This document shows positions 1,079 through 14,009 of a stretch of 15,074 nt of DNA, piece after piece (the first letter of the stretch is position 1; each line of letters starts with the position of its first letter). The DNA comes from Pseudomonadota bacterium (GTDB lineage Bacteria > Pseudomonadota > Gammaproteobacteria > Burkholderiales > Thiobacillaceae), in the NCBI GenBank assembly GCA_021802595.1, contig JAJZRT010000021.1:1-15074 (forward strand). Direction: 5' to 3'. The position numbers and the translations under genes are program-made. Below the pieces are notes generated by a model. The model ran no database searches, had not been told where the DNA came from, and saw only the letters and a program-made list of their open reading frames with translations.

Positions 1079-1907
1079 GCGCGCGATTATCATTCTGGCG
1101 TGCAATTTCCTTGCGATCTGGCGCCGTGTCGCGAGTCAGTCAATTCCCAATTCGTCTAGCCGTGCTGGTAAATGAGCCAATTTGGGGTGCTCGAACGGTT
1201 CAGGAATGAAGCGTTGATGTCTCCGAGTCGTTGACGCGACAGGAATGTGCGGCCGCTTACGAGTGAATTGGACGGCTCTATGCGACGGCAGCTTGTAGCC
1301 GGGACGGTCAATCAGCCTATGCGTATTCGTCGGCCTCAGCTGCCGTTGAGGCACTCCTATCTCTATGTCGTCTGTGTAATGTACTGCTGACCTTTTCCAT
1401 ATAGGTGCGCCGAACGTTCGCTTCGCGGTTTTTCGGCAATGCTACTCGGCTATACCGCCAAGAATCCACAGCTTTAGACATAGAGAGGTCTTCGCTTGAG
1501 GGATTGCTCTGCTGGCGGTACAAGAACGGGCAGTTTGAAGCCATATCCCAACCCATGATGATCTGTTCGCCATCGGCTGCGACAGCACCCCACCTCCAAT
1601 AGCGAGCCCGCGCTGTGTGGCGCGGAGGGTGACTTTGTTCAAAGACCCCGAACACTTGGTTGATCCTGCTGGCCAGCTTAAGCTTCATGATCGAGTGCCT
1701 GGGTATAGAGGATAAGCTATGCCTGTTTCTCGACCACTTCAGCGCGCCAATGGCCTGCCAAAGGCGAAACGTGACGCTTGATGAAGTGGCCTGACCGAAT
1801 TTTTTGTACCAGCGGCATAGTGAGATTAATGCATCGTTGGTGGCCACCGAGGCCCATCAGCGCTAAGCTTTGCGCAGCAAGCAAGCACCTAACTAGAACT
1901 CAGAAAA
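1079..1907. other. Intergenic stretch with doubtful ORFs only
   Basis: No confident gene. The longest open frame is on the minus strand (1847 down to 1317, 176 codons). It contains ARYWRWGAVAADGEQIIMGW, which looks protein-like, but the rest is low-quality and I recognise no domain. A 72-codon minus frame (1354-1136), a 65-codon plus frame (1405-1602) and a 33-codon minus frame (1818-1717, starting MPLVQKIRSGHFIKR) overlap it or lie alongside. The pattern of short protein-like pieces in different frames would fit a decayed gene on the minus strand with frameshifts, but this is a guess. A 10-bp perfect palindrome, GGTGGCCACC, lies at 1839-1848. The last 60 bases are AT-rich and probably hold the promoter of the SIR2-like gene. 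Confidence 0.3.
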
Positions 1908-1935
1908 TTTGGAACGGATACAAACAACGACAGAT

Positions 1936-1941
1936 AAGGGA
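1936..1941 (+). promoter_or_regulatory. Ribosome binding site choosing the GTG start of the SIR2-like gene
   Basis: AAGGGA lies six bases before the GTG at 1948. The alternative in-frame TTG at 1909 has no comparable purine-rich site, so the GTG start is preferred. It also puts the first Rossmann strand (NAIIVGAG) near the N-terminus, as usual for this family. Confidence 0.6.
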
Positions 1942-1947
1942 ACTCCG

Positions 1948-3048
1948 GTGAACTCAAAAGAGATTCACAACGCAATTATCGTTGGCGCGGGCTTTTCCTG
2001 TCACGCTGGTCTCCCGCTTCAGAGTGACTTTACGGAGGCGCTGCTCGAACCGCGGCACCAAGGTGGTCACCCCAATCAGGCACTTGTCCAAAATCTGTCG
2101 CAGTTCGTGCATGACGTGTTCGATCACAATGTCAATGCGAAATCGGCATTCTGGCCTGATCTTGAGGACATATTTACATCGATTGACCTGTCTGCCAATG
2201 CGGGGCACCATCTAAATTCGAAATACACGCCCAAGGAATTGCGGAAACTTCGGCGCGCGTTCATCGCACGGATCATCTGGATGTTGGATGAGCGGTTCAA
2301 TAATGCAAAATATCTGACGTCGCATGAATTTCAAGATCTGTCCGAGTTCTTCAAAAAAATTGACTCGGATCGCACGGCATTCATATGCATGAACTGGGAC
2401 ACGGTTATTGAACGGATGATCCAGCGAGTTAAGGGGATTAATTCCTTCAACTACGGATGCGCTGCACTGCCCGCTTCCTTTCCGAAAAAGAGGGGAGCAA
2501 TTAAGCAGGCGAAAAAAACGACTGGTCTGGGCTCGCTAAGAATCGTCAAGATGCACGGCTCGACCAACTGGCTCTATTGCGATAACTGTCGTCAACTATA
2601 TTGGTTCGATCCGAAGGACTCCCCAGAGATTGCCAAGCAACTCTGCGACGAAAATAACTCAAGTAATACCCCGCCATACTGGGAATGTCCAGAGTGCACA
2701 GGAGTGCGCCTTACGACGCGAATGGCAACTTTCAGCTATCTTAAAGCGCTTGATTTCCCTATGTTCCAACGTTCATGGCTAACAGCGGAAGATATCCTTC
2801 GAAATGCGAGTAAATGGGTGTTTATAGGCTATTCACTGCCCGCAGCGGATTATGAATTCAAGCACTTCCTGAAACGCATTCAAATGTCTCGGAAAAAGAC
2901 GCCGGATTTTGTGGTGGTAACTAAAGGACCCAATAGTCGGGACACCTACCTCAATTATCAGCGGTTCTTTGGACGAGGGATTGGGAAACGCACGAATTTC
3001 TTCAAAAATGGCCTAGACGCAACGGCTATCAACGCTGCTTTGACATAA
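1948..3048 (+). CDS. SIR2-like (SIR2_2 type) protein with four-cysteine insert, probable defence NADase
   Basis: This 366-residue protein (GTG start) has a sirtuin-type Rossmann fold. The NAD-binding loop is GAGFSCHAGLP (13-23), the NWD motif is at 149-151, and KMHGS (201-205) carries the predicted catalytic His203. GYSLPAADYEFKHFLKR (294-310) is the C-terminal nucleotide-binding stretch typical of bacterial SIR2-like proteins. Between His203 and that stretch are two CxxC pairs (C211/C214 and C247/C250), a possible zinc ribbon. Bacterial proteins of this group often act as NAD glycohydrolases in anti-phage defence (ThsA of Thoeris, DSR, SIR2-HerA) rather than as deacetylases. Here the role is inferred. 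No membrane segment or signal peptide is seen. The coding strand is clearly more AT-rich than the flanking DNA, suggesting transfer. The next gene starts 120 bp downstream on the same strand. A deacetylase role cannot be excluded, because sirtuins also carry a four-cysteine zinc site. Confidence 0.85.
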   Translation: MNSKEIHNAIIVGAGFSCHAGLPLQSDFTEALLEPRHQGGHPNQALVQNLSQFVHDVFDHNVNAKSAFWPDLEDIFTSIDLSANAGHHLNSKYTPKELRKLRRAFIARIIWMLDERFNNAKYLTSHEFQDLSEFFKKIDSDRTAFICMNWDTVIERMIQRVKGINSFNYGCAALPASFPKKRGAIKQAKKTTGLGSLRIVKMHGSTNWLYCDNCRQLYWFDPKDSPEIAKQLCDENNSSNTPPYWECPECTGVRLTTRMATFSYLKALDFPMFQRSWLTAEDILRNASKWVFIGYSLPAADYEFKHFLKRIQMSRKKTPDFVVVTKGPNSRDTYLNYQRFFGRGIGKRTNFFKNGLDATAINAALT

Positions 3049-3168
3049 TCGAACAATTTTTTGTGACGAGATCACAGCAAAGAATGCGAGGACTTGCTTT
3101 GCAATGGCTAGCAAATGGGAAATGATCAGATATCCACTATATGTTAGAAGGCGACTAACACTAGCGGA

Positions 3169-4293
3169 ATGGCCATAAACGAAGAAGACCTTCGCAAGAC
3201 CGGAGAATGGTGGGCAGACCCGTGGTGGCTTGAAGATAATTGGGTCGAGGTTACACCGCGCTCTATTGAAGAAGTGAAGGAAGCATTTGACTTCCTGAAA
3301 ACGATCTTTACGGCAGAATGGTGTCGATCTTATACCGGTGATTATTTCGACAATGTGTTTCTCCGATCTATTTTTTTCCGAGTATATACCAACCGCGAGT
3401 TCTTGCTTAGGCTTTCCGCGAGACTACGACGGATACAGGGGATACCTGGAAGCCATATTGTCATAGATGGACTTCTCAGCAGGGAGCGCAGCGAGTCGTC
3501 AGCCATGGAACTCGATATCGCGGACTGCTTCTTGAGCGAAGGATTCCGAGTGGAGTTTCCTATCCCAAAACCTTCTAAGGGAAAGATGCCCGATATCCGC
3601 GCGGCAAAGGGTTCTGAACAGATCGCGATCGAATGCAAACGATTGGAGGTTGGCGGGGTTACTGCGTGGCTGGATGCGGCTTATGATGCATTGTCACATG
3701 ACATAATGAACGCTGCAAGCGCCGCGGGGCTTCTGGTTAAATTTAATATCGTACCAGAGGTGTCGGAACGCCTGATCCGAGCGCGGTCAAGCAAAGAGAA
3801 CCCACGAGCGGCGGCGAGAAAAATCACGAAATTTCTGATGGAGCAGATAGAAATTGCTCGACAAAGGGATGTGTGGCCAGCGCTGATCGCAGTCGTTGGA
3901 TTGGGTCAAGGAATTTTCTGGTCCTCCGAGGTCAAGGAAGGATCGTCAGTCAGCTTCTCAAGCACGCCTGACGTACAATTGCTCAAGAGAATGCTAAGCA
4001 ATGCATTGATCCCGGCAGCCAAACAGCTGCGAAACGAATCCGCGCCAGGATTGGTAGTCATTCACGCACGTGATATTCCGTCGGGGGAATATCTTTCTGA
4101 TTATGTAAGACTACTGATGAATGGAGACCACACACCTTTGTCCAATGTCGTTGGGGTGCTAGTCCTACCTTGGCAGGGATGGTTCCACAGAATTCAGTCG
4201 TATTTAATTACCAACCCGCTGGTTCCCTTTAACTGGGAAACTAGTAGCTGCGCGGACGTCCTGAGGAACCATTTTGACCCGATCATCACTTAA
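3169..4293 (+). CDS. Unrecognised protein with PD-(D/E)XK nuclease core, putative defence partner of the SIR2-like gene
   Basis: I do not recognise this 374-residue protein as a named family. Its central region fits the PD-(D/E)XK nuclease fold: a helix with Glu114 (MELDIADCFLSEGF), a strand (FRVEFPIP), then MPDI with Asp142, and after 12 residues IAIECKRL with Glu155 and Lys157. These would be the metal-binding and catalytic residues. The N-terminal 90 residues are rich in Trp, acidic and aromatic residues (TGEWWADPWWLEDNW at 11-25) and may be a recognition domain. The C-terminal half contains helices and strands (VWPALIAVVGLGQGIFW, APGLVVIHARDI) with no motif I know. No signal peptide or membrane span is seen. 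The ATG at 3169 has only a weak upstream site; AGAAGG at 3146-3151 is too far away to decide. Same strand and similar AT-rich composition as the SIR2-like gene suggest a shared module. The target (DNA, RNA or none) is unknown. Confidence 0.72.
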   Translation: MAINEEDLRKTGEWWADPWWLEDNWVEVTPRSIEEVKEAFDFLKTIFTAEWCRSYTGDYFDNVFLRSIFFRVYTNREFLLRLSARLRRIQGIPGSHIVIDGLLSRERSESSAMELDIADCFLSEGFRVEFPIPKPSKGKMPDIRAAKGSEQIAIECKRLEVGGVTAWLDAAYDALSHDIMNAASAAGLLVKFNIVPEVSERLIRARSSKENPRAAARKITKFLMEQIEIARQRDVWPALIAVVGLGQGIFWSSEVKEGSSVSFSSTPDVQLLKRMLSNALIPAAKQLRNESAPGLVVIHARDIPSGEYLSDYVRLLMNGDHTPLSNVVGVLVLPWQGWFHRIQSYLITNPLVPFNWETSSCADVLRNHFDPIIT

Positions 4294-4873
4294 GCAGCTA
4301 CTGCCAATGCAGACTTTATTCCCCCAGGTGTCGCCGTGGTCACATATTCCGGTACCACGTGATTCCAGACCCTGACGGTAAATGGAAGATCTCATTCTGT
4401 GACGGCAGGTGGAAAGAGCCGGACACCGCGGCCCCTCACCCTGATGCCGTGCAGTAGGGAGACCGGTTGTACCAGCGCTCGGGACCTGTTGGTCATTGGC
4501 GCTCTTTTACGAAGGCAGCCCGATCGGAGGGCGCAGGAAATGACCACCGGCAATGACGCGGGCCCCCATTCACGCGGCATGTACACCCAACGCCCAAAAT
4601 AGGCGCGAGAGCAGACGTTCGATTGGGCTAGCGCCAGCGTCGGGTTTGGCCGAGGAAACGACGGTTCGAAAGGCCGACGACGACTCGTCGGCCGGAGTGG
4701 CCACTGAGATACACCGCGCGTTACGTCAGCAATGAAGCTGGTTGCTGCCGGTTACAATATCGGACAACTGAACGTCAGCTTTCAGCACCGATAAACTCAC
4801 ACTTTCGATTCTGAGCAGTTTTTCGATTTTCCCGAAGGCGGACGCTCCCAAACTTTCTCTCACTAACCCCCGC
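4294..4873. other. Intergenic region left of the first IS; no gene seen
   Basis: Several short frames are open on both strands (for example 4399-4602 plus and 4586-4392 minus), but none has family-like content or a good start site. GC content rises again after the nuclease gene, so the AT-rich module probably ends close to 4300. The stretch contains one strong hairpin (listed separately) and an AT-richer patch at about 4740-4860 just before the IS end. It contains no recognisable beginning of the COG4705 gene that is truncated on the other side of the IS. Confidence 0.45.
4672..4693. repeat. Perfect 9-bp-stem hairpin
   Basis: GGCCGACGA, loop CGAC, then TCGTCGGCC form a perfect 9-bp stem. No run of T follows on either strand, so a classical terminator is unlikely. 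It could be a protein-binding dyad or part of an old element end. Confidence 0.55.
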
Positions 4874-4893
4874 TGCCAGGATAGTTGTCGCCT
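4874..4893 (+). repeat. Left inverted repeat of IS copy 1
   Basis: TGCCAGGATAGTTGTCGCCT, pairing at 17 of 20 positions with the right end at 6506-6525. Confidence 0.8.
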
Positions 4894-4931
4894 CTTGTTC
4901 ATAACCTTGAGGGGGCGAAAGGGAGTCAACC

Positions 4932-5447
4932 ATGACGCAGTACGCAGTGGAACGGAAGGAGTCAGCGGTCCGCCGGATGCTGGCATCGCCTGAGCGGTCG
5001 ATCCGGGAATTGTCGCGGGAGACCGGCATCTCCACCTGGTCGCTGTATGATTGGCGCAAGAAAGCCATGAAGGAGGACCCTGCCGTGTCAGGCAAATCGA
5101 CACCACCCGGCAAACAGGCATCGGGCGCGAAGCGCTCCGCAGCCCAGAAGCTCGCAGCCGTGGCCGAGACCAGCGCACTCAACGAAGCGGAGCTTGCCGA
5201 ATACTGCCGTGCGAAGGGGCTATATCCCGAGGAGGTGAGAGCCTGGCGGGAGACGGCCGAAGGCGCACTCAGCGGCGGGATGGTGCCGGCGAAGGAGCTT
5301 CGCGAAGCCAAGGCCGCGGAGGCCAAGCGCGTGAAGGAACTCGAACGGGAACTTCGGCGCAAGGAAAAGGCGCTCGCCGAAACCGCAGCGCTGCTCACGC
5401 TTCGAAAAAAAGCGGCCGCGATCTGGGGCGAGGGAGAGGAAGAATGA
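4932..5447 (+). CDS. IS3-family transposase OrfA, copy 1
   Basis: This 171-residue protein binds the IS ends. An N-terminal helix-turn-helix at about residues 23-46 contains SIRELSRETGISTWSLYDW. A basic, alanine-rich linker follows, then a second segment with NEAELAEYCRAKGLYPEEV. A long heptad-rich helix at about 119-158 (ELERELRRKEKALAE) would form the dimerising coiled coil that OrfA shares with the frameshifted OrfAB transposase. The start is supported by AAGGGAG six bases upstream of the ATG. The 171-residue length is longer than the roughly 100-residue OrfA of many IS3 elements, and copy 2 has exactly the same length. Its TGA overlaps the orfB ATG (ATGA), which allows coupled translation of orfB. 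Confidence 0.88.
   Translation: MTQYAVERKESAVRRMLASPERSIRELSRETGISTWSLYDWRKKAMKEDPAVSGKSTPPGKQASGAKRSAAQKLAAVAETSALNEAELAEYCRAKGLYPEEVRAWRETAEGALSGGMVPAKELREAKAAEAKRVKELERELRRKEKALAETAALLTLRKKAAAIWGEGEEE
5405..5411 (+). promoter_or_regulatory. Programmed -1 frameshift site of IS copy 1
   Basis: Seven A residues read as A AAA AAA in the OrfA frame (codons CGA AAA AAA GCG). A -1 slip here enters the orfB frame, which stays open through the orfB start, giving an OrfAB fusion. This is the known way IS3 elements make active transposase. The same heptamer in the same register occurs in copy 2. Confidence 0.75.
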
Positions 5448-6499
5448 TCAGCACCCCGGATCGTGAGGCAGCAGTAGCGCTGATCGAAGAAGCTGTCCAT
5501 GCCGGTGCCCACCGCGCCCGCGCCTGTACCGAACTCGGCCTCACGGCACGCACCCTGGAGCGCTGGACACAGGGTGGCGCCGTCAAGGCGGATGGCAGGC
5601 CGGGGGCTTCGCGACCCGTGCCCGCAAACAAGCTCTCGGAATCGGAACGCATTACGGTGCTCGCCATCGTGAACACGTCGCGCTTTGCATCGCTCCCGCC
5701 CACCCAGATCGTGCCGAGGCTTGCCGATGAAGGCCGCTATCTCGCATCGGAATCGACCGTTTACCGCATCCTGCGGGAGGCCGATCAATTGCAGCACCGG
5801 GGTCGGGCCAAAGCACCGGACTGCCGTCCCGTGCCGCGCCAGTGCGCGAGCGGCCCGAATGAGCTGTGGTCGTGGGATATTTCATATTTACCGGGCCCGG
5901 TCCAGGGGATCTTCTACTTCCTCTATCTCGTGCTGGATGTCTATTCCCGCAAGATCGTCGCCCACGAGGTGCATGAGGTCGAATGTGCTGACAAGGCGGC
6001 AGCCCTCATCGCGCAGGCCTGTGCCCGCGAACGCATTGAGAGGCCGCTGATCCTGCACCAGGACAACGGCTCCCCCATGAAGGCCTCGACCTTCGCAGCG
6101 AAACTCGATCAGCTCGGCATCCACAGATCCTACAGCCGTCCGGGGGTCTCGGACGACAATCCATACTCCGAGAGCCTCTTCCGGACTGCCAAGTACCGCC
6201 CTGAATATCCTGGCGCGTTCGCAACGATCGAGGAGGCGCGGACCTGGATGCTCGCCTTCGTGCGCTGGTACAACACGGAACACAAGCACCGCAACTTGAA
6301 GTTCGTGAGCCCCGAAGAACGGCACGCGGGAAAGGATGCAGCCATCTTCGCGCAGCGCATCAAAATCTACGAGCAGGCCCGGTCGCAACATCCGGAACGC
6401 TGGAGCAGAAATATCCGTAACTGGTCGCTGCCGAGCGAAGTGTGGCTCAACCGGCCGGCCGACATTGCCGGCACAGACCCACAACGAGAGGCGGCGTGA
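5444..6499 (+). CDS. IS3-family transposase OrfB (DDE integrase domain), copy 1
   Basis: This 351-residue protein carries the catalytic domain, which cuts and joins the IS ends to target DNA, normally as the C-terminal part of OrfAB. An N-terminal helical region with TARTLERW looks like a second helix-turn-helix. The retroviral-integrase-type core has Asp145 in LWSWDISYLPGP, Asp207 in LHQDNGSPM and Glu243 in NPYSESLF. The last two are separated by 35 residues, the D-D-35-E signature of this group. The C-terminal WYNTEHKHRNLKFVSPEER is also typical. All catalytic residues are present, so the element may still be active. The ATG overlaps the orfA stop, and GAGGAAGA just upstream could serve as its ribosome site. 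Confidence 0.92.
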   Translation: MISTPDREAAVALIEEAVHAGAHRARACTELGLTARTLERWTQGGAVKADGRPGASRPVPANKLSESERITVLAIVNTSRFASLPPTQIVPRLADEGRYLASESTVYRILREADQLQHRGRAKAPDCRPVPRQCASGPNELWSWDISYLPGPVQGIFYFLYLVLDVYSRKIVAHEVHEVECADKAAALIAQACARERIERPLILHQDNGSPMKASTFAAKLDQLGIHRSYSRPGVSDDNPYSESLFRTAKYRPEYPGAFATIEEARTWMLAFVRWYNTEHKHRNLKFVSPEERHAGKDAAIFAQRIKIYEQARSQHPERWSRNIRNWSLPSEVWLNRPADIAGTDPQREAA

Positions 6500-6505
6500 A
6501 ATTCC

Positions 6506-6525
6506 AGGCGACAACTACCTTGACA
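6506..6525 (-). repeat. Right inverted repeat of IS copy 1
   Basis: Plus-strand AGGCGACAACTACCTTGACA, ending in CA. The identical sequence is found at the right end of copy 2. Confidence 0.8.
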
Positions 6526-6526
6526 G

Positions 6527-7126
6527 CCGCCGTTCCTGGCTGCCGTAATCGCGCAGGTCAAGGCCAAAGGGTTCCATCCATTCCTGTACTGGACCACCAT
6601 CATCGCCACCACCACGGTCGGCACGACGCTGGCCGATTTTGCGGATCGCTCGCTCGGAATCGGGTACGCCGGTGGTTCGAGCTTGCTGCTGGCTTTTCTG
6701 CTTAGCTCGCTCTTTGTCTGGCATCGCACCCTCGGCTCCGTGTCGGTGAGCACCGTCAGCTCGCCCAAGGCGGAAGCCTTCTACTGGATGACGATCATGT
6801 TCTCCCAGACTTTGGGCACGGCGCTTGGTGACTGGACCGCCGACACGGCGGGCCTGGGCTACACCGGCGCAGCTATCGTGTTCGGAGGATCGCTCGCCCT
6901 GATCGTGGCAGCCTACTACTGGACTCGGGTGTCGCGTATCCTGCTGTTCTGGGCGGCGTTCATCTTGACCCGCCCGCTGGGTGCTGTGGTCGGTGACTTT
7001 CTTGACAAGCCGCTGAGTGCGGGAGGCTTGGCGTTGAGCCGCTATTCAGCATCGGCCGCGCTGCTTGCGTTCATGTTGACCGGCATCCTGCTGTTCAGGC
7101 AACGGGCAGCGAGGACGGCACATTGA
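6527..7126 (+). pseudogene. COG4705-type multi-span membrane protein, 5' end lost at the IS
   Basis: The frame is open from the IS border to a TGA at 7124-7126, about 198 residues, with no proper start at its head. Its content is membrane-spanning repeats, including FLYWTTIIATTTVGTTLADF, AEAFYWMTIMFSQTLGTALG and LLFWAAFILTRPLGAVVGDF. These repeated (F/Y)W...T...G(T/A)..(A/G)D modules are characteristic of COG4705 membrane-anchored proteins, usually around 250 residues, so roughly the first 50-60 are missing. An internal ATG at 6683 could give a 147-residue product but would begin in the middle of a repeat unit. The family function is not established. A response-regulator start follows 22 bp after the stop, so this gene once headed a COG4705 to two-component operon. 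The missing 5' part is not beside the left end of the IS, which implies a deletion or rearrangement as well as insertion. Confidence 0.78.
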
Positions 7127-7148
7127 GCAACGAGAACTGATTGGGGGA

Positions 7149-7172
7149 ATGCGGGTATTGCTGGTCGAATAG
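7149..7172 (+). pseudogene. Response regulator remnant (first seven codons)
   Basis: ATGCGGGTATTGCTGGTCGAA encodes MRVLLVE, the usual beginning of an OmpR-type receiver domain, where acidic residues (EDD) should follow. Instead the frame meets TAG. A purine-rich TGGGGGA precedes the ATG. The sequence after the break bears no relation to a receiver domain and belongs to the uppP segment. With the histidine kinase tail at 8207-8371 this marks a disrupted two-component operon. The match is short, so the call leans on context. Confidence 0.55.
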
Positions 7173-7253: not shown

Positions 7254-8102
7254 TTACCCCACCCAAAGCACCACCAGGGAGGCCAGCAGGCAGTAGGCGC
7301 CGAAAAAATGCCAACGGCCCTGTTCCAGCCAGCGCGAGAGCCAGCGTAGTGCCACCAAACCCGCCAGGAAGCTCAACGCCATGCCGATCAGACTCGGGCC
7401 GACGAGTTGCATGAGCCCGCCTGTATGCGCTGCCATGGCGGCGCCCTGCGCCTGGTAAAGCCGATATGCTTCCTTGACGATCACTGCGGGGGTCAGCACC
7501 ACCGCCAGCGCGAAGCTGAACTCCTCTGCTCGTCGGCGGCCCACGCCCAAGGCAAGGCCGGTCGAGATAGTGGCGCCCGACCGGGAGAAGCCCCGAAATG
7601 GCAGGCACAGACCCTGCACTGCGCCTATCCATGCTGCGCTGCGCAGCGACAAATCATCATTGCCCGTGCTCTCGGGAAAACGCGACGACACGATGATCAG
7701 CACGCCGGCTGCGGCCAGCGCGGCGGCCATCAACCTGGCATTGCCGAACAGGTTCTCAATTTCGAAACCGGGCATGTTGCCAGCGACCACGTGTTTGATC
7801 AGTTGCAGCAGGGCCAGTCCCACTGCGCCAGTCGCTATCGTCGCGACCACTACACGGAGCGCGTTGGCACGAAATTTCTGGACTGAACCAAAGTAAGTAG
7901 TACGCCAAGACTTCCAGAAGTAGACGATGACCGCGAACATCGTTCCGGTGTGCAGCATCACCAGCAACAGCGTCATCTCGGGCACGGTGGGGTCCAGCCC
8001 CATCAACTTCTCGGCCACAATGACGTGAGCCGAACTGGAGACCGGCAAAAGTTCTGCCGCCCCCTGAACGATGGCGAGGATCAGGATCTGCAGGAGGTTC
8101 AT
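7254..8102 (-). CDS. uppP: Undecaprenyl-diphosphate phosphatase (BacA/UppP family)
   Basis: This 282-residue integral membrane protein belongs to the family that dephosphorylates undecaprenyl diphosphate to recycle the lipid carrier for peptidoglycan, which also underlies bacitracin resistance. The first signature is QGAAELLPVSSSAH (13-26), which satisfies (E/Q)xxxE with Q13 and E17 and places His26 at the position of the E. coli active-site histidine. The second is PFRGFSRSGAT (168-178), with Arg174; the usual PGxSRS turn has R in place of P. Several hydrophobic spans cover the rest, for example LMAAALAAAGVLIIVSS. The ATG at 8102 is chosen because it aligns with the family N-terminus and the longer upstream frame overlaps a histidine kinase remnant. 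Its ribosome site is poor. UppP-type phosphatases occur in some lead-resistance loci (PbrB supplies phosphate to precipitate exported lead), so a metal role here is possible but inferred. Confidence 0.9.
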   Translation of the reverse strand: MNLLQILILAIVQGAAELLPVSSSAHVIVAEKLMGLDPTVPEMTLLLVMLHTGTMFAVIVYFWKSWRTTYFGSVQKFRANALRVVVATIATGAVGLALLQLIKHVVAGNMPGFEIENLFGNARLMAAALAAAGVLIIVSSRFPESTGNDDLSLRSAAWIGAVQGLCLPFRGFSRSGATISTGLALGVGRRRAEEFSFALAVVLTPAVIVKEAYRLYQAQGAAMAAHTGGLMQLVGPSLIGMALSFLAGLVALRWLSRWLEQGRWHFFGAYCLLASLVVLWVG

Positions 8103-8182
8103 ACTAGAAAAATCTCGGATGACGACAAGGTGAGCATAACGTATGGGCAACTGAAGCCAGCGAGTCATTCTCGAATAGGTTC

Positions 8183-8199
8183 TGTCAATGCTATTGACA
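8183..8199. promoter_or_regulatory. Palindrome upstream of uppP, possible operator
   Basis: TGTCAAT, GCT, ATTGACA is a perfect 7-bp inverted repeat 81 bp upstream of the uppP ATG. Read toward uppP it contains TTGACA, a consensus -35 hexamer, but I find no convincing -10 at the right spacing. It may be a regulator site controlling uppP. Confidence 0.4.
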
Positions 8200-8206
8200 A
8201 TGATAG

Positions 8207-8371
8207 ACGCCCGTGCCCGAACGCTTCGCGCGGGGTAACACAGCGAGGAGCCAGCCTGGCAGTGGCCTCGCACTCGTCAAGGCGATCACGCACGCCCACG
8301 GCGGAAGACTGGAACTGACCGGTACGCCTGGCGATGGGCTGACTGTGCGGCTCAGCCTGCCTATCGCCTGA
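8207..8371 (+). pseudogene. Sensor histidine kinase remnant (last 54 codons)
   Basis: The frame opens right after a TAG at 8204-8206 and runs to TGA at 8369-8371. It encodes PERFARGNTA, then QPGSGLALVKAITHAHGG, then a final LTVRLSLPIA. This is the end of a HATPase_c domain: the F box (ERFARG), the G2 box (GSGLALVKAI) and the closing beta strands. No start codon, dimerisation domain or H box is present, so it is only the 3' end of a kinase gene. Its strand agrees with the response-regulator remnant at 7149, and the minus-strand uppP lies between them. The natural reading is a COG4705, regulator, kinase operon whose middle was lost and replaced by uppP. Confidence 0.8.
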
Positions 8372-8422
8372 ACCCAGGGATTGGCGGTCTTCTTTCGGCA
8401 GACATTCGGATCGTTGCCTTTT

Positions 8423-8779
8423 TTATTTTTGTACCAACCTGTCCATCGCCAAGCTGTGGACCATGCGGGCCACAAACTTCCTTTCCGCAGCAGAGAGGTT
8501 ATGAAAATCCACCAAGAAGTCATGCTCGAATTTCGAGCGAGCAGAGGATGGCTTGGTGTGACCATTCCCGAAGGTGAGCCACTCGGGCGATTTCCCTAGA
8601 ATTTTTGCCATTTGAAGCAGCGTGGAATGGCGCAATGACTTGATTTTTCCGTTTTCAAGGTTGCACAGCAGGGACGGAGAAACATCACAGCGCCTGGCGA
8701 GTTCAGCCTGACTCAGCCCTGCTCGAATCCTGGCATCTTTGATGCGATCAGCGAGCGTCATATCCCTCTGATTTGTCAT
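8423..8779 (-). CDS. XRE-family helix-turn-helix regulator
   Basis: This 118-residue protein has a Cro/CI-type DNA-binding domain at residues about 10-68: LADRIKDARIRAGLSQAELA, then SPSLLCNLENGK, then TLLQMAKILGKSPEWLTFG. The C-terminal 45 residues (KFEHDFLVDFHNLSAAERKF) are helical and probably dimerise. The ATG at 8779 is chosen because AGAGGAAG lies just upstream and family members begin close to the first helix; the frame is open for 59 more codons upstream but in non-conserved sequence. The promoter region contains a 12-bp palindrome overlapping a TATAAT box, consistent with self-repression. It faces away from the metal genes and overlaps no other gene. Its target is unknown; a phage- or element-derived regulator is as likely as a metal-related one. 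Confidence 0.85.
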   Translation of the reverse strand: MTNQRDMTLADRIKDARIRAGLSQAELARRCDVSPSLLCNLENGKIKSLRHSTLLQMAKILGKSPEWLTFGNGHTKPSSARSKFEHDFLVDFHNLSAAERKFVARMVHSLAMDRLVQK

Positions 8780-8790
8780 GATCTTCCTCT

Positions 8791-8802
8791 TTATAATTAT
8801 AA
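8791..8802 (-). promoter_or_regulatory. -10 region and palindromic operator of the XRE gene
   Basis: TTATAATTATAA is a perfect 12-bp palindrome in a patch of nearly pure A/T. Read on the minus strand it contains TATAAT ending 16 bases before the ATG, leaving room for a short leader holding the ribosome site. The -35 is not convincing. The overlap suggests autorepression. Confidence 0.45.
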
Positions 8803-9127
8803 TATGAATCTTGTAGCAATAATTTGCCACACAATTGCCGATAAACAGGACGCATGAGTTTTGCTGGCGTGCACTGCTAGGTGGGTGACAAGCGTTGACT
8901 GGAGACAAAAATCTGTGACATTGATATAGGCTAATTCCCTGATACACAACCTCCAAGCCGTCGAATGTTATCTTTTGGCAGTGTTGGAGAACTCTTTGAA
9001 AGTGGTTTGCAGCAGAGTGTTCTCAACACAATAGGCCAGTTTCAGACGGTCAGGTCGGTCACTATGACCATATCGTTATCGGCCTCACAGACCACCAAAT
9101 GTTGTTGGATAGCTCAAATATCCACCC
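8803..9127. other. Gap between the XRE gene and the DMT permease; no gene seen
   Basis: A plus-strand frame opens at 8965 but continues into the antisense of the permease and has no family content. The small dyad GGTCA-CTA-TGACC at about 9055-9067 is the only structure noticed. There is no obvious terminator for the permease transcript, which would end here from the right. Confidence 0.4.
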
Positions 9128-10177
9128 TCAATGGCTATGCCGGTGGTGAGCATCCGGGAAATGTGGGTGTGCGTGGATCAGGGGTTCATGCCGGTGCCGA
9201 TGGCTGTGTTTGGTGCCAGGCGTTACCGGAAAATCATGCGCATGCTGGTGGTGTTCGTCGTGGACATGCTCGTGGCGGTGTTCCATCTCTTCGTGCTGGT
9301 GTCCGTGCTCATGGCGCTCAGTTAGATGCAACCACGTGCCCAGCGCCATCAATGCACCGGCCATCAGCAGCGGCATGGTGACCGGCTCCCCCATCAGGAC
9401 AGCGAGCAAGGCACCGAAGAACGGCGCGACCGAGAAATAAGCCCCTGTGCGCGCCGTGCCAAGGTGGCGCAGACCTACAACGAATAGCGTCAAACTCACC
9501 CCATAGGCAAGCAAGCCTACGATCATCGCACCCGCCAAACTGGGCAATGCGGGCATCGACGCGCCTAGCGAGAAGGCTAGACCCAGATTGACGATGCCGG
9601 ATACCCAGCCTTTCACAGAGGCGATCCAGGTGGCATCGGTAAGCGACACCTTGCGGGTCAAATTGTTATCAACACCCCAGGCGAAACATGCGCCAAGGAT
9701 GGCCAGTGTCGGCCACAGTCCGGCAATACGCGCACCTGAGGGCACGCTCAGGACGACCGCACCGGCCACGATGGCAAGCATGCCCAGTGCGATGCGCCGG
9801 TCGAAGTTCTCCTTGAATGCAAACCACGCCAGCAACGCGGTGAACACACTTTCGGCATTCAGCAGGAGGGACGCGCCAGATGCGGGCATACCTGTCAGCC
9901 CGAACATCAGCAGTACAGGGCCGATGATCCCGCCTGACAAAATCGCCCCGGCAAACCACGGCACTTCATTCCCGGGGAGACGAACGACAGGGGCATGGGT
10001 CAGCCAACGATAAAGTGACAGGCCGACGCCCGACCCCAAATAGAGCAGTCCTGCCAACATCCACGGATTTACAGCATCAAGCAGCCCCTTTGCGAGCGGT
10101 GTTCCCGCCCCAAACAATAAGGCCGCACCGAGTGCGGCTGGCACGCCAGTCTGGCGGAAGCCTTCTTTCCAGTTCAT
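9128..10177 (-). CDS. DMT/EamA-family transporter with histidine-rich C-terminal tail
   Basis: This 349-residue protein has two EamA repeats, about 10-145 and 155-286, giving ten predicted membrane spans. Span sequences include PAALGAALLFGAGTPLAKG, ILSGGIIGPVLLMFGLTG and a closing AGALMALGTWLHL. The last 63 residues form a soluble tail with 23 histidines, ending PLIHAHPHFPDAHHRHSH. EamA proteins normally have both ends in the cytoplasm, so the tail would face the cytosol, where it could bind Zn, Ni, Co or Cd. Most family members move small metabolites, and the transported substrate is unknown. The ATG lies 15 bp after the MerR gene stop on the same strand, with a GCGGGAAAGAAA leader, so the two are almost certainly one operon under MerR control. 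That context argues for a metal-related function. Confidence 0.87.
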   Translation of the reverse strand: MNWKEGFRQTGVPAALGAALLFGAGTPLAKGLLDAVNPWMLAGLLYLGSGVGLSLYRWLTHAPVVRLPGNEVPWFAGAILSGGIIGPVLLMFGLTGMPASGASLLLNAESVFTALLAWFAFKENFDRRIALGMLAIVAGAVVLSVPSGARIAGLWPTLAILGACFAWGVDNNLTRKVSLTDATWIASVKGWVSGIVNLGLAFSLGASMPALPSLAGAMIVGLLAYGVSLTLFVVGLRHLGTARTGAYFSVAPFFGALLAVLMGEPVTMPLLMAGALMALGTWLHLTERHEHGHQHEEMEHRHEHVHDEHHQHAHDFPVTPGTKHSHRHRHEPLIHAHPHFPDAHHRHSH

Positions 10178-10192
10178 CCGTTTCTTTCCCGC

Positions 10193-10642
10193 TTAGTGGC
10201 TGCTGCGCACATGTCCGCCCGCTTTCTTGCGTTTGCTTCCCGCCCCGGAGGACAGGCCTTTCATAATCCCGCAGTTTTCTGTTCTCTGGGTGGTACGGCA
10301 TAGCCGCCTCAGGGCTTTGAGTTCCTGTTGCAGCCCCGTCAGTTCCTCAATGCGCTGGCTGACATGGTGGATATGTTCATCCAGCAGCGCATTGACCTCA
10401 CCGCAACTCGCCGAGGGGGTATCCCGGAACTTCAGCAGCGTGCGGATTTCATCCAGGTTCATATCCAGGCTCCTGCAATGACGGATAAACCTGAGCCGCT
10501 CGACATGGTCAAGCTCATAGAGCCTGAAGTTTCCGGCACTTCGAGCCGGAGTGGGGAGCAATCCTTCCCGCTCGTAATAACGGATGGTTTCAACCTGGCA
10601 ACCCGACTGCTTAGCCAGTTCACCGATCTTCATCTGAGACAT
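10193..10642 (-). CDS. MerR-family heavy-metal regulator, PbrR/CadR-like
   Basis: This 149-residue protein has the MerR winged-helix domain at the N-terminus (MKIGELAKQSGCQVETIRYY, then NFRLYELDHVERLRFI), a long dimerisation helix, and metal-binding cysteines at 80 (SASCGEVN), 115 (LRRLCRTT) and 124 (ENCGIMKGL). This three-cysteine pattern defines the Pb/Cd/Zn branch. The last two cysteines are nine residues apart, as I recall for PbrR-type sensors; CadR-type spacing is shorter. The tail ends basic with histidines (KRKKAGGHVRSSH). Members bind between a poorly spaced -35 and -10 and twist the promoter into activity when loaded with metal. The start could be Met1 or Met4; neither has a strong ribosome site. 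It is divergent to czcD and shares the intergenic operator with it, and is followed by the DMT gene in the same operon. The metal is inferred as Pb, Cd or Zn. Confidence 0.9.
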   Translation of the reverse strand: MSQMKIGELAKQSGCQVETIRYYEREGLLPTPARSAGNFRLYELDHVERLRFIRHCRSLDMNLDEIRTLLKFRDTPSASCGEVNALLDEHIHHVSQRIEELTGLQQELKALRRLCRTTQRTENCGIMKGLSSGAGSKRKKAGGHVRSSH

Positions 10643-10667
10643 CGTGTCTGCCGTTTCGCTTAAAGCC

Positions 10668-10698
10668 TTGACCCTATAGTAGCTACAAGGTGCAAGCT
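10668..10698 (+). promoter_or_regulatory. MerR-type promoter and operator for czcD
   Basis: TTGACC (10668-10673) as -35 is followed by a 19-bp spacer, CTATAGTAGCTACAAGGTG, and CAAGCT (10693-10698) as a weak -10. The spacer carries an imperfect dyad, ACCCTATAG-T-AGCTACAAGGT, closely like known pbr/cad/zntA operators. An over-long spacer is the hallmark of promoters activated by MerR proteins. It faces czcD, while the regulator gene starts 26 bp away on the other strand. Confidence 0.8.
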
Positions 10699-10776
10699 TC
10701 TCAATTATTGGGTTTCAGATATACGGCGCCGGGCCACTGCGCTGGCATTGGCGATTCAATTGATTTGGAGTTTTTC

Positions 10777-11706
10777 ATGGCGCACGACCACCACCACGAC
10801 CATCACGGGCATGGACACCCGCATGGCCCCGCCAATTATGGGCGTGCCTTCGCCCTCGGCATCACGCTCAACCTTGGCTTCGTCGGCGTCGAAGCGGCCT
10901 ACGGGTTGATGGCGAACTCCATGGCCCTGATTGCCGATGCCGGACATAACCTGAGCGATGTTCTGGCGTTGGCTCTGGCCTGGCTCGCCAGTCTGCTTGC
11001 GCAACGCAAACCCTCCGGTCAGTTCACCTACGGACTGCGCAGCAGTTCCATCCTGGCGGCCCTGGCCAATTCCATGCTCCTTCTGGTCGTCTCTGGCGCA
11101 ATTCTGTGGGAAGCCATCCTGAGACTGTTAAAACCCGAAACGGTGGGCAGCGGAACCATCATCTGGGTCGCAGCCATCGGGATTGTCATCAATACGGCAA
11201 CGGCCCTGATGTTCATGAAGGGACGTAAAGATGACCTCAACATTCGGGGCGCCTATTTGCACATGGCGGCTGATGCGCTGGTTTCGGCGGGCGTGGTGGT
11301 GGCCGGCCTGGGCATTATGTTGACCGGCTGGGCGTGGCTGGATCCGCTCGTGAGCATTCTCATCGTTTGCGCCATCCTCTGGAGCACATGGGGTCTGCTG
11401 GCAGACTCGGTTCGCCTGAGCCTGCATGCCGTGCCACCAGGGATCGACGCCAAGGCCATTCGCGACTATCTGGAGTCCTTGCCAAATGTGGCCGAAGTCC
11501 ATGATCTCCATATCTGGGGCATGAGCACGACAGAGACAGCTCTGACCGCCCACCTGGTGATGTCCAACGGCTACCCCGGTGATGCATTTATTGCCCAGAC
11601 CGTCCACGAATTGCATGAGCATTTCCAGATTGGGCATGCCACGATCCAGGTTGAAACAGCCGATGCGAATTACGCCTGCCCCCTGGCACCTGAGTATATG
11701 GTTTAG
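10777..11706 (+). CDS. czcD: Cation diffusion facilitator, CzcD-like Zn/Cd/Co exporter
   Basis: This 309-residue inner-membrane antiporter would export Zn, Cd or Co in exchange for protons. It opens with a histidine-rich stretch (HDHHHDHHGHGHPHG, 3-17) and has six predicted spans. The transport site is formed by ADAGHNLSD in the second span (His57, Asp61) and HMAADALVSAG in the fifth (His162, Asp166), the HD-HD arrangement linked to Zn/Cd in this family. The C-terminal cytoplasmic domain contains NVAEVHDLHIWGMSTTETAL, matching the CDF dimerisation domain (VHDLHIW). The ATG at 10777 is preceded by GGAG at 10767-10770. The frame is open upstream to 10690, but that would overlap the -10 element. 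Expression should follow metal through the divergent MerR regulator. Complete, with no missing key residue. Confidence 0.94.
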   Translation: MAHDHHHDHHGHGHPHGPANYGRAFALGITLNLGFVGVEAAYGLMANSMALIADAGHNLSDVLALALAWLASLLAQRKPSGQFTYGLRSSSILAALANSMLLLVVSGAILWEAILRLLKPETVGSGTIIWVAAIGIVINTATALMFMKGRKDDLNIRGAYLHMAADALVSAGVVVAGLGIMLTGWAWLDPLVSILIVCAILWSTWGLLADSVRLSLHAVPPGIDAKAIRDYLESLPNVAEVHDLHIWGMSTTETALTAHLVMSNGYPGDAFIAQTVHELHEHFQIGHATIQVETADANYACPLAPEYMV

Positions 11707-11725
11707 CCTTGCCTTCCTGATTCTG

Positions 11726-11746
11726 AGCCCGCCATGCTTGCGGGCT
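11726..11746 (+). terminator. Hairpin after czcD, possible weak terminator
   Basis: AGCCCGC, loop CATGCTT, GCGGGCT form a perfect 7-bp GC-rich stem 20 bases after the czcD stop. No T run follows, so intrinsic termination would be weak. Confidence 0.45.
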
Positions 11747-11953
11747 GCCCTGCGTTCAATGGGCATTCCGGGCCTGTGATTGGCGCTTCCTCGCAATCTG
11801 TTTCCACCCGGTTCATCGTGACAGGTAATCTGGCCCGCCCATTGGCAGTCAAGCGCGTTTACGGTGGCGATCATGCCGATTTCAGCACTTGAACTGCGTA
11901 TAGCCGGTGACAGATAACGCTCCGGCCTATCGTCGAATTCTGGCTATGCAAGC

Positions 11954-12262
11954 TTAGCCATGTCCATGGCGTGGATGCACTTCCAGGTTTTCAACCTCGC
12001 ATTCCTCGATGTAATGCACGAAACTGCGGCGCAGTCGCTCCGACCAGCCCTCGCCGAGCTTTGCGCCCACATTCCCCATCTTCGCTTCGAGCTGATTCGC
12101 AGTTGCTTGGAGCAGATCGTAGGTTATCGTCACCTTCTTGTCGTCCTGGATTTCTATTGCCTTCACCCCCATCATGGCGCCCAACTCCTCGGCCAAAATG
12201 GCGGCGCCTTGCGAGGTAAGTGGCATGTCGAGTTGAAAGCTTCTTCGCTTGAATAGCTCCAC
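11954..12262 (-). CDS. Small protein with HMA-like secondary-structure pattern, lacking CxxC
   Basis: I do not recognise this as a named family. The 102-residue sequence reads as a ferredoxin-like order of elements: strand SFQLDMPL (8-15), helix SQGAAILAEELGAMMG, strands VKAIEIQDD and KKVTITYDLL, then helix ANQLEAKMGNVGAKL. This is the pattern of heavy-metal-associated (HMA) domains, but there is no CxxC and only one cysteine. The tail EVHPRHGHG is histidine-bearing. Its place beside czcD suggests an accessory metal role, which is inference. The start is a GTG at 12262 with AGAAGG close upstream. The frame stays open toward the neighbouring IS end 34 bp away (upstream codons read EKAPKQKG), so the IS may have removed the true beginning or the promoter. 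Confidence 0.6.
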   Translation of the reverse strand: MELFKRRSFQLDMPLTSQGAAILAEELGAMMGVKAIEIQDDKKVTITYDLLQATANQLEAKMGNVGAKLGEGWSERLRRSFVHYIEECEVENLEVHPRHGHG

Positions 12263-12296
12263 GCCCTTCTGTTTGGGTGCCTTCTCACCCCCCCGC

Positions 12297-12316
12297 TGCC
12301 AGGATAGTTGTCGCCT
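12297..12316 (+). repeat. Left inverted repeat of IS copy 2
   Basis: TGCCAGGATAGTTGTCGCCT, identical to the left end of copy 1 at 4874-4893. Confidence 0.8.
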
Positions 12317-12355
12317 CTTCTGTTAAACCTGTGTGGGGCGGAAAGGGAGTCAACC

Positions 12356-12871
12356 GTGACGCAGTATGCGCTGGAACGTAAGGAGTCGGTGGTCCGCCGG
12401 ATGCTGGCATCGCCTGAGCTGTCGATCCGGGAATTGTCGCAGGAGACCGGCATTTCCACCTGGTCGCTGTATGATTGGCGCAAGAAAGCCATGAAGGAGG
12501 ACCCTGCCGTGTCAGGCAAATCGACACCATCCGGAAAGCAGTCATCGGGCAGCCGACGCAGCGCAGCGCAGAAGGTCGCCGTGGTGGCCGAGACCGCGGT
12601 ACTCAACGAAGCCGAGCTTGCCGAATACTGCCGTGCGAAGGGGCTTTATCCCGAGGAAGTGAGAGCCTGGCGGGAGGCAGCTGAAGGCGCGATGAATTCC
12701 GCCCTGGTTCCGCACAAGACGATGCGCGAAGCGAGGGCCGCTGACCAGAAACGCATCAAGGAGCTCGAACGCGAACTGCGACGCAAGGAAAGAGCACTCG
12801 CCGAAACCGCAGCGCTGCTCACCTTGAGAAAAAAAGCCGCGGCGATATGGGGGGAGGAAGAGGAGCAATGA
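12356..12871 (+). CDS. IS3-family transposase OrfA, copy 2
   Basis: This 171-residue counterpart of copy 1 OrfA has the same helix-turn-helix (SIRELSQETGISTWSLYDW) and C-terminal coiled coil (ELERELRRKERALAE). It starts at GTG where copy 1 has ATG, with the same AAGGGAG site upstream, so the start is assigned by comparison. The middle third (about residues 55-130) differs most from copy 1, for example MNSALVPHKTMREARAADQK. An A7 slip site occurs at 12829-12835 near the end, and its stop overlaps the orfB ATG. Confidence 0.87.
   Translation: MTQYALERKESVVRRMLASPELSIRELSQETGISTWSLYDWRKKAMKEDPAVSGKSTPSGKQSSGSRRSAAQKVAVVAETAVLNEAELAEYCRAKGLYPEEVRAWREAAEGAMNSALVPHKTMREARAADQKRIKELERELRRKERALAETAALLTLRKKAAAIWGEEEEQ
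12829..12835 (+). promoter_or_regulatory. Programmed -1 frameshift site of IS copy 2
   Basis: The A7 run reads AGA AAA AAA GCC in the OrfA frame. A -1 slip leads into the orfB frame. Retention in a diverged copy supports a functional role. Confidence 0.75.
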
Positions 12872-13923
12872 TCAGCACCCCAGATCGCCAGGCGGCCGTG
12901 ACGCTGATCGAAGAAGCGGTTGAGGCCGGTGCCCGCCGCGCCCGCGCCTGTACCGAACTCGGCCTCACGGCACGCACCCTGGAGCGCTGGACGAGGGGCG
13001 GTGCGGTGAAGTCCGATGGGCGCCCTGCGGCCTGCCGACCCGTGCCGCGCAACAGGCTCTCGCAGGAAGAGCGCAAGCAGGTGCTGACGGTGGTGAACGA
13101 GCCGCGCTTTGCATCGCTCCCGCCCGCCCAGATCGTGCCGAAGCTTGCCGATGAAGGGATCTATCTCGCCTCGGAATCGAGCTTCTACCGGATCCTGCGG
13201 GAGGCCGATCAATTGCAGCACCGGGGTCAGGCCAAAGCACCGGACTGCCGTCCCGTGCCGCGCCAGTGTGCCAAGGCGCCCAATGAGCTCTGGAGCTGGG
13301 ATATCAGTTATTTGCCGGGTCCGGTCCAGGGAATGTTCTACTTCCTCTATCTCGTGCTCGATGTCTATTCCCGCAAGATCATCGCCCACGAGGTGCATGA
13401 GGTCGAATGCGGGAAGCGGGCCGCTCGCCTGATCGAGCAGGCCTGCGCGCGCGAGCGCATCACGGACCTGCTCGTGCTGCACCAGGACAACGGCTCCCCC
13501 ATGAAGGCCTCGACCTTCGCAGCGAAACTCGATGAGCTCGGCATCCGCCGCTCCTACAGCCGTCCGGGGGTGAGTGACGACAACGCTTACTCGGAGAGTC
13601 TCTTCCGGACGTGCAAGTACCGCCCCGAATATCCTGGCGCGTTCGCAACGATCAAGGAGGCGCGGGCCTGGATGCTCGCCTTCGTGCGCTGGTACAACAC
13701 GCAACATAAGCACCGCAATCTCAAGTTCGTGAGCCCGGCCGAACGGCACGAGGGGAAAGACACCGCGATCTTCGCGCACCGCACCGCGGTCTACCAGCAG
13801 GCTCGATCGAAGCATCCCGAGCGCTGGAGTCGTGACATCCGCAACTGGTCGCTGCCAAGCGAAGTGTGGCTCAACCGTCCGGCCGACATTGCCGGCGCAG
13901 ACCCACAACGCGAGGCGGCGTGA
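12868..13923 (+). CDS. IS3-family transposase OrfB (DDE integrase domain), copy 2
   Basis: This 351-residue catalytic protein is intact. The triad is Asp145 (LWSWDISYLPGP), Asp207 (LHQDNGSPM) and Glu243 (NAYSESLF), with 35 residues between the last two. Differences from copy 1 are spread unevenly. The region before the second aspartate (CGKRAARLIEQACARERITD against CADKAAALIAQACARERIER) differs, while the DNA around that aspartate is identical over 57 bp. The start is the ATG overlapping the orfA stop. An in-frame ATG at 12847 lies within the frameshift extension and is not needed. Confidence 0.92.
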   Translation: MISTPDRQAAVTLIEEAVEAGARRARACTELGLTARTLERWTRGGAVKSDGRPAACRPVPRNRLSQEERKQVLTVVNEPRFASLPPAQIVPKLADEGIYLASESSFYRILREADQLQHRGQAKAPDCRPVPRQCAKAPNELWSWDISYLPGPVQGMFYFLYLVLDVYSRKIIAHEVHEVECGKRAARLIEQACARERITDLLVLHQDNGSPMKASTFAAKLDELGIRRSYSRPGVSDDNAYSESLFRTCKYRPEYPGAFATIKEARAWMLAFVRWYNTQHKHRNLKFVSPAERHEGKDTAIFAHRTAVYQQARSKHPERWSRDIRNWSLPSEVWLNRPADIAGADPQREAA

Positions 13924-13929
13924 AATTCC

Positions 13930-13949
13930 AGGCGACAACTACCTTGACA
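13930..13949 (-). repeat. Right inverted repeat of IS copy 2
   Basis: Plus-strand AGGCGACAACTACCTTGACA, identical to the right end of copy 1 at 6506-6525. Confidence 0.8.
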
Positions 13950-14009
13950 GCCGCCGACTCTGATGATCAACTGCTTCGTGGTGATAGGACCTCCTGTTGT
14001 CGAGAGGGA

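Follow-up and report, generated by a model that had tools for sequence, protein, structure and literature searches.

The Locus and Its Sequence Setting

The window, meaning the whole stretch of 15,074 bp analyzed here, carries two adjacent genes on the same strand, one for a SIR2-like sirtuin and one for a PD-(D/E)XK-type protein, and both ORFs occur in the ORF list of the window where the initial annotation had placed them. The pair had been described as AT-richer than its surroundings, and GC content between 1501 and 4500 is indeed 46–53% across six 500-bp bins; the other bins lie at 56–67%, with the sole exception of 8501–9000 (47%). The observation of a two-gene unit is confirmed, but its extent is corrected: the unit shared with a second locus, L001, is slightly larger than the two coding sequences first delimited. 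The features are as follows.

1787..4310, + strand: block shared with L001, comprising both genes with flanking sequence of about 160 bp before and 17 bp after them
1948..3048, + strand: SIR2-like sirtuin, 366 aa from GTG, with the GAGFS loop, N149, H203 and C211/C214/C247/C250
3049..3168, + strand: intergenic spacer of 120 bp (121 bp in the L001 counterpart)
3169..4293, + strand: PD-(D/E)XK-type nuclease of a family without a name, 374 aa, with E114, D142 and E155-C-K157
4867..6532 and 12290..13956: two copies of an element that we take to be IS3-like, 84.7% identical to each other, with transposase HTH and rve domains
Remaining genes of the window: DJ-1/PfpI, DUF347, BacA, HTH, RadC, EamA, a CadR-type regulator and a CDF cation efflux gene

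A terminator scan of the spacer found none on the + strand. A minus-strand open frame of 176 aa without a Pfam match (1317–1847) has its start within the shared block. The two IS3-like elements flank a segment with metal-efflux and membrane genes, possibly forming a composite element. The DUF347 region (6533–7169) is 86–88% identical to stretches of 12 plasmid records, including those of Delftia, Cupriavidus, Burkholderia and Variovorax; these 12 are all the records with a match to the window, and in each the region is the best-matching place.

L001 (JAJYEX010000001.1) belongs to the MAG "Proteobacteria bacterium isolate DBS1-1.bin70". Window positions 1787–4310 and L001 positions 7841–10364 are 91.4% identical; beyond this block, the window has no match in 17 kb of L001 at E 1e-3 or better, and a short-word search of the two found outside it only matches of 13–17 bp (E 0.81 or worse). 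The two genes are common to both loci as a single block between unrelated flanks. Pairwise dS between the two copies is 0.20 and 0.17 for the two genes, and this similarity is consistent with joint descent. Pairwise dN/dS, taken as point values without a significance test, is 0.35 for the SIR2 gene and 0.29 for the nuclease gene; values well below 1 are consistent with constraint on both.

The defense role initially suggested is supported by the setting of the second copy. On the upstream side of the L001 SIR2 gene, a phospholipase effector gene and a CBASS-type cyclase gene, with PADLOC scores of 549.8 and 452.3 bits, end at a distance of 4.7 kb. A HamC2-like gene (204.2 bits) ends closer, at 3.9 kb, and a gene for a WYL-domain protein is found beyond them. 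The surroundings of the L001 pair look like a defense island.

The SIR2-like Protein

Upstream of the GTG start at 1948, which also occurs in L001, the open SIR2 reading frame extends to a TTG at 1909. The motifs first reported in the protein are present, namely the NAD loop GAGFS (residues 13–17), NWD (149–151) and KMHGS with H203, and the GAGxS loop together with the catalytic Asn and His upholds its identification as SIR2. Gly13, Gly15, Ser17, Asn149, Asp151 and His203 are invariant in all 21 family sequences aligned, that of the window included. The protein database contains 676 SIR2 matches, counting its own copy, which is more than chance. Matches to PADLOC SIR2 models are weak (best E 2.3e-7), that to PF02146 is below the cut-off (E 0.047), and PF13289 is precomputed on several family members. 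The best PDB profile match is 8w9l, a SIR2-like domain protein (E 0.0081).

Four cysteines that had gone unremarked are conserved in the same alignment, Cys211, Cys214 and Cys247 in 21 of 21 sequences and Cys250 in 20 of 21. A CxxC...CxxC zinc-ribbon pattern downstream of the catalytic HG is found in 119 of the 120 proteins listed among the 676 matches, again including the window's own; the lone miss, P0019, has one cysteine altered. By locus, the pattern is present in L001–L004 and L006–L018 and absent, by the same pattern, from L005. Among the more divergent SIR2 loci, it is present in L019–L027, L029–L031, L033, L035 and L037, and absent from L032, L034, L036 and L038–L048. An FGE-type loop, which marks deacylases, was sought downstream of the ribbon with a simple pattern and occurs in none of the 120 listed proteins.

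SIR2_2 proteins are described as having no zinc-binding module, which canonical sirtuins require for deacetylation (PMC12700824, 2025). The family in the window departs from this description in its cysteine pattern and so appears to unite SIR2_2-type features with a putative zinc ribbon. The pattern leaves room for a SIR2 activity other than NAD depletion.

The PD-(D/E)XK-type Protein

The residues initially picked out in the 374-aa protein, Glu114, Pro141-Asp142 and Glu155-Cys156-Lys157, are all present, and the proposed nuclease-type fold is supported by an alpha-beta nuclease core. The family comprises 10 protein-database sequences including its own copy, and the other nine are 36–90% identical to it. 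Glu114, Asp142, Glu155, Cys156 and Lys157 are invariant in all 10, Pro141 varies (His or Ala in P0126/P0127), and the E..D..(D/E)xK pattern is also retained in four distant relatives. The best structural and profile matches are Holliday-junction resolvase Hjc, NucC and BsmI, which we take to be members of the PD-(D/E)XK superfamily; the Foldseek matches span about 45–50 residues. These three share the E..D..ExK pattern with the 374-aa protein, which differs in having N- and C-terminal parts of its own and no family name. It falls outside all Pfam, NCBIfam and PADLOC models (PADLOC gives no match at E 1), and no P-loop family match was found.

One distant relative, on an Agrobacterium plasmid (L052, 5680–7047), is labeled "transposase", a label that looks wrong; DUF4007 and cysteine desulfurase genes are nearby.

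Generality of the Pairing

The initial annotation had proposed that the two genes work together, and had named beforehand rare co-occurrence of their homologs as evidence against it. Rare co-occurrence is largely what was found. Among the 20 SIR2 loci with readable context (L001–L018, L053 and L068), a match to the nuclease profile occurs in L001 alone, leaving 19 without the nuclease, and a general conserved pairing is not upheld. These 20 loci are not independent, as L009, L013 and L014 are near-identical; L011, L016 and L017 start close to a contig end, and the fragmentary L019 and the divergent L020–L048 stand outside the count. On the nuclease side, no SIR2-profile match was found near the four distant nuclease relatives (L051, L052, L054 and, for downstream context only, L069), which come from plasmids of Serratia, Kosakonia and Agrobacterium and from one genome. 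For the other eight nuclease clusters (P0003, P0004, P0005 and P0126–P0130), a comparison by eye of the longest contig of each cluster gave no length in common with the 120 listed SIR2 clusters.

Genome searches with the nuclease covered 369 genomes in the class to which G001 belongs, with two matches, namely itself and a partial one (E 9.7e-4); 7 in its family, with itself as the one match; and 396 in the phylum of the L003 genome, where one distant relative matched. The partial match falls in a topoisomerase-like frame and is probably due to chance. In the class of the L015 genome, 0 of 385 matched in a search run without a positive control, an empty answer that shows nothing. For the SIR2 protein, a threshold of E 1e-60 left three matches among 396 genomes of the order that includes the L013 genome, two of them already known, and E 1e-40 left one among 57 genomes of the order that includes G001, again itself. 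The two pair-bearing loci may stem from one joining event.

Other Neighbors of the SIR2 Family

At 10 of the 20 SIR2 loci, the direct neighbor matches another catalogued defense gene, a count taken without a neighbor control and so a pattern, not a statistic. At 14 of the 20 loci, selected nearby genes were scanned with PADLOC and Pfam; L008, L010, L012 and L016 were read from ORF lists only, and L009 and L014 were judged by their likeness to L013. In L013, the zinc-ribbon SIR2 gene adjoins PD-lambda-4_A (9326–13126), a full-length model match of 1223.7 bits; near-identical frames lie in L014 (9361–13311) and L009 (9272–13071, frame-broken), and the SIR2 gene is at 7977–9116 in each. L010 has a close SIR2 homolog, and its ORF list holds no long downstream frame of the PD-lambda-4_A type. 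In Mycoplana dimorpha (L015, 7977–15475), the zinc-ribbon SIR2 gene is followed after 80 bp by an Avs3a match that is full-length and scores 3379.5 bits.

Lamassu-type genes are found at two loci: LmuA and LmuB (216.7 and 703.2 bits) end 451 bp upstream of SIR2 in L068, and the L011 neighbor resembles LmuA (46.7 bits) and also has a STAND match below threshold. L007 (6804–9933) is a tight run with a DndB-like gene upstream of SIR2 and, downstream of it, a gene for a RES domain, an NAD-degrading toxin. In the divergent L018 (4541–13801), a tight run consists of an HmaA-like helicase, SIR2, an HmaB/DUF1156 methylase and a TIR-domain protein, with a 20-bp overlap and a 3-bp gap at the SIR2 borders. 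AbiEii (264.8 bits) is the neighbor in L003, and Vsr (90.3 bits) lies 278 bp downstream of SIR2 in L053. The selected neighbors scanned in L002, L004, L005, L006 and L017 gave weak PADLOC matches or none; the L002 SIR2 gene faces an Abi_C gene, and that of L006 follows HATPase and receiver genes. Because one of the 20 loci has the nuclease and 10 others have different catalogued defense genes beside SIR2, the SIR2 protein looks like a roaming component, with the 374-aa nuclease as one of its partners.

Comparison with Named Systems

The statement that the pair corresponds to no named system holds for PADLOC 2.0, in which no system is matched by both genes. SIR2-HerA and HerA-DUF4297 likewise consist of two genes, one of them encoding a SIR2 or a nuclease; unlike them, the window has no recognized HerA ATPase. 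A partner gene for TIR, HerA or a short or long Argonaute, as in Thoeris, SIR2-HerA, SPARSA or BPAS, was not found beside the SIR2 gene in the window ORF list or by Pfam, NCBIfam and PADLOC scans of the main ORFs. Loci of the PD-lambda-4, Avs3 and Lamassu types (L013, L015, L068) have an adjacent member of the same SIR2 family, but its partners there are unlike the 374-aa protein and none is matched by the nuclease profile.

SIR2-bearing systems include Thoeris, DSR1/DSR2, Avs5 and SPARSA (PMC10952713), which, like the window, have a SIR2 domain whose catalytic residues include Asn and His; the catalytic mutant of DSR2, for example, is N133A/H171A (PMC10973363). The window differs from them in lacking a recognized TIR, APAZ, Argonaute or STAND domain and in the zinc-ribbon pattern of its SIR2. 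BPAN and BPAS consist of a long-B Argonaute with a PD-(D/E)XK nuclease or with Sir2_2, respectively, and the Sir2_2 effector of BPAS depletes NAD, kills alone and is restrained by its Argonaute partner (PMC10620215). As described there, the same two effector folds serve invader-triggered cell death, and SIR2 is controlled by a nucleic-acid-binding partner; each effector, however, is paired with an Argonaute and not with the other effector, and no Argonaute was recognized among the scanned ORFs of the window. No description of the pair turned up in the titles and opening abstract lines of the PMC papers found or in passages of PMC9519451 and PMC10952713; as the search mostly covered literature outside subscription journals, this does not prove that none exists.

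Proposed Function and Alternatives

Our leading, still tentative reading is that the pair is a small mobile two-gene module against phages or plasmids, combining a DNA-acting nuclease with an NAD-consuming sirtuin effector. The 374-aa protein would be the DNA-acting part, which recognizes and probably cuts invader DNA, and the zinc-ribbon SIR2 would consume NAD, slowing or killing the infected cell. From the two loci we infer joint action; a physical or functional coupling of the proteins, and the choice of which of them senses, would be further parts of this proposal. Both catalytic sets are intact, dN/dS is low, the genes are shared as one block and L001 offers an apparent defense island, all of which supports the module at the sequence level. 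The similar dS of the two genes, the nuclease-type fold and the defense genes adjoining SIR2 relatives also speak for it. Each half has a published parallel (PMC10620215), BPAS being the one for a Sir2_2 that depletes NAD under Argonaute control. Counting against the module are the small number of pair-bearing loci (two), the 19 of 20 SIR2 loci without the nuclease, the four distant nuclease relatives with no SIR2 beside them, the 120-bp spacing and what PMC12700824 says about zinc.

The main competing explanation is that two roaming genes act independently: a self-contained SIR2 defense gene and a stand-alone restriction-type nuclease would lie side by side with no joint action, which is quite possible, if on the whole improbable. 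The many different, or unrecognized, neighbors of SIR2, the distant nuclease relatives without a SIR2 match and the 120-bp spacer all fit such independence, but the comparison with L001 yields a shared block containing almost nothing besides the two genes, at near-identical spacing.

A broader proposal, which we regard as doubtful, makes the zinc-ribbon SIR2 a common plug-in of immunity, added to Avs3, PD-lambda-4, Lamassu-, Dnd- and AbiE-type systems and found in its smallest form with the nuclease; its role would be to modify or license a partner that acts on nucleic acid, either in place of draining NAD or in addition to it. It is rather unlikely that the SIR2 is a protein-modifying sirtuin (a deacylase or an ADP-ribosyl transferase) that switches its nuclease partner or a phage protein and is not an NAD-depleting toxin. 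The four-cysteine pattern in nearly all listed proteins, in view of the zinc requirement for canonical deacetylation and the missing module of SIR2_2 (PMC12700824), and the occurrence of family members next to Avs3a, PD-lambda-4_A and other large multi-domain proteins speak for protein modification; the uniform lack of an FGE-type loop, a ribbon that is putative and a best PDB profile match to a SIR2-like domain protein, itself only at E 0.0081, speak against it. That the genes are mere passengers of a mobile region with a non-defense role such as element maintenance, as the two IS3-like copies and the RadC gene could suggest, is very improbable given the defense-gene neighbors of SIR2 relatives and the CBASS-type genes near the L001 pair.

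If the two-gene module is real, it would add a compact defense module whose nuclease family is nameless in the libraries searched, and the pair is compact enough to be cloned whole. The SIR2 protein would represent a zinc-ribbon sirtuin family with varied defense partners, contrary to the stated view that SIR2_2 has no zinc module, and it raises a directly testable question: does a zinc-ribbon sirtuin destroy NAD or modify proteins?
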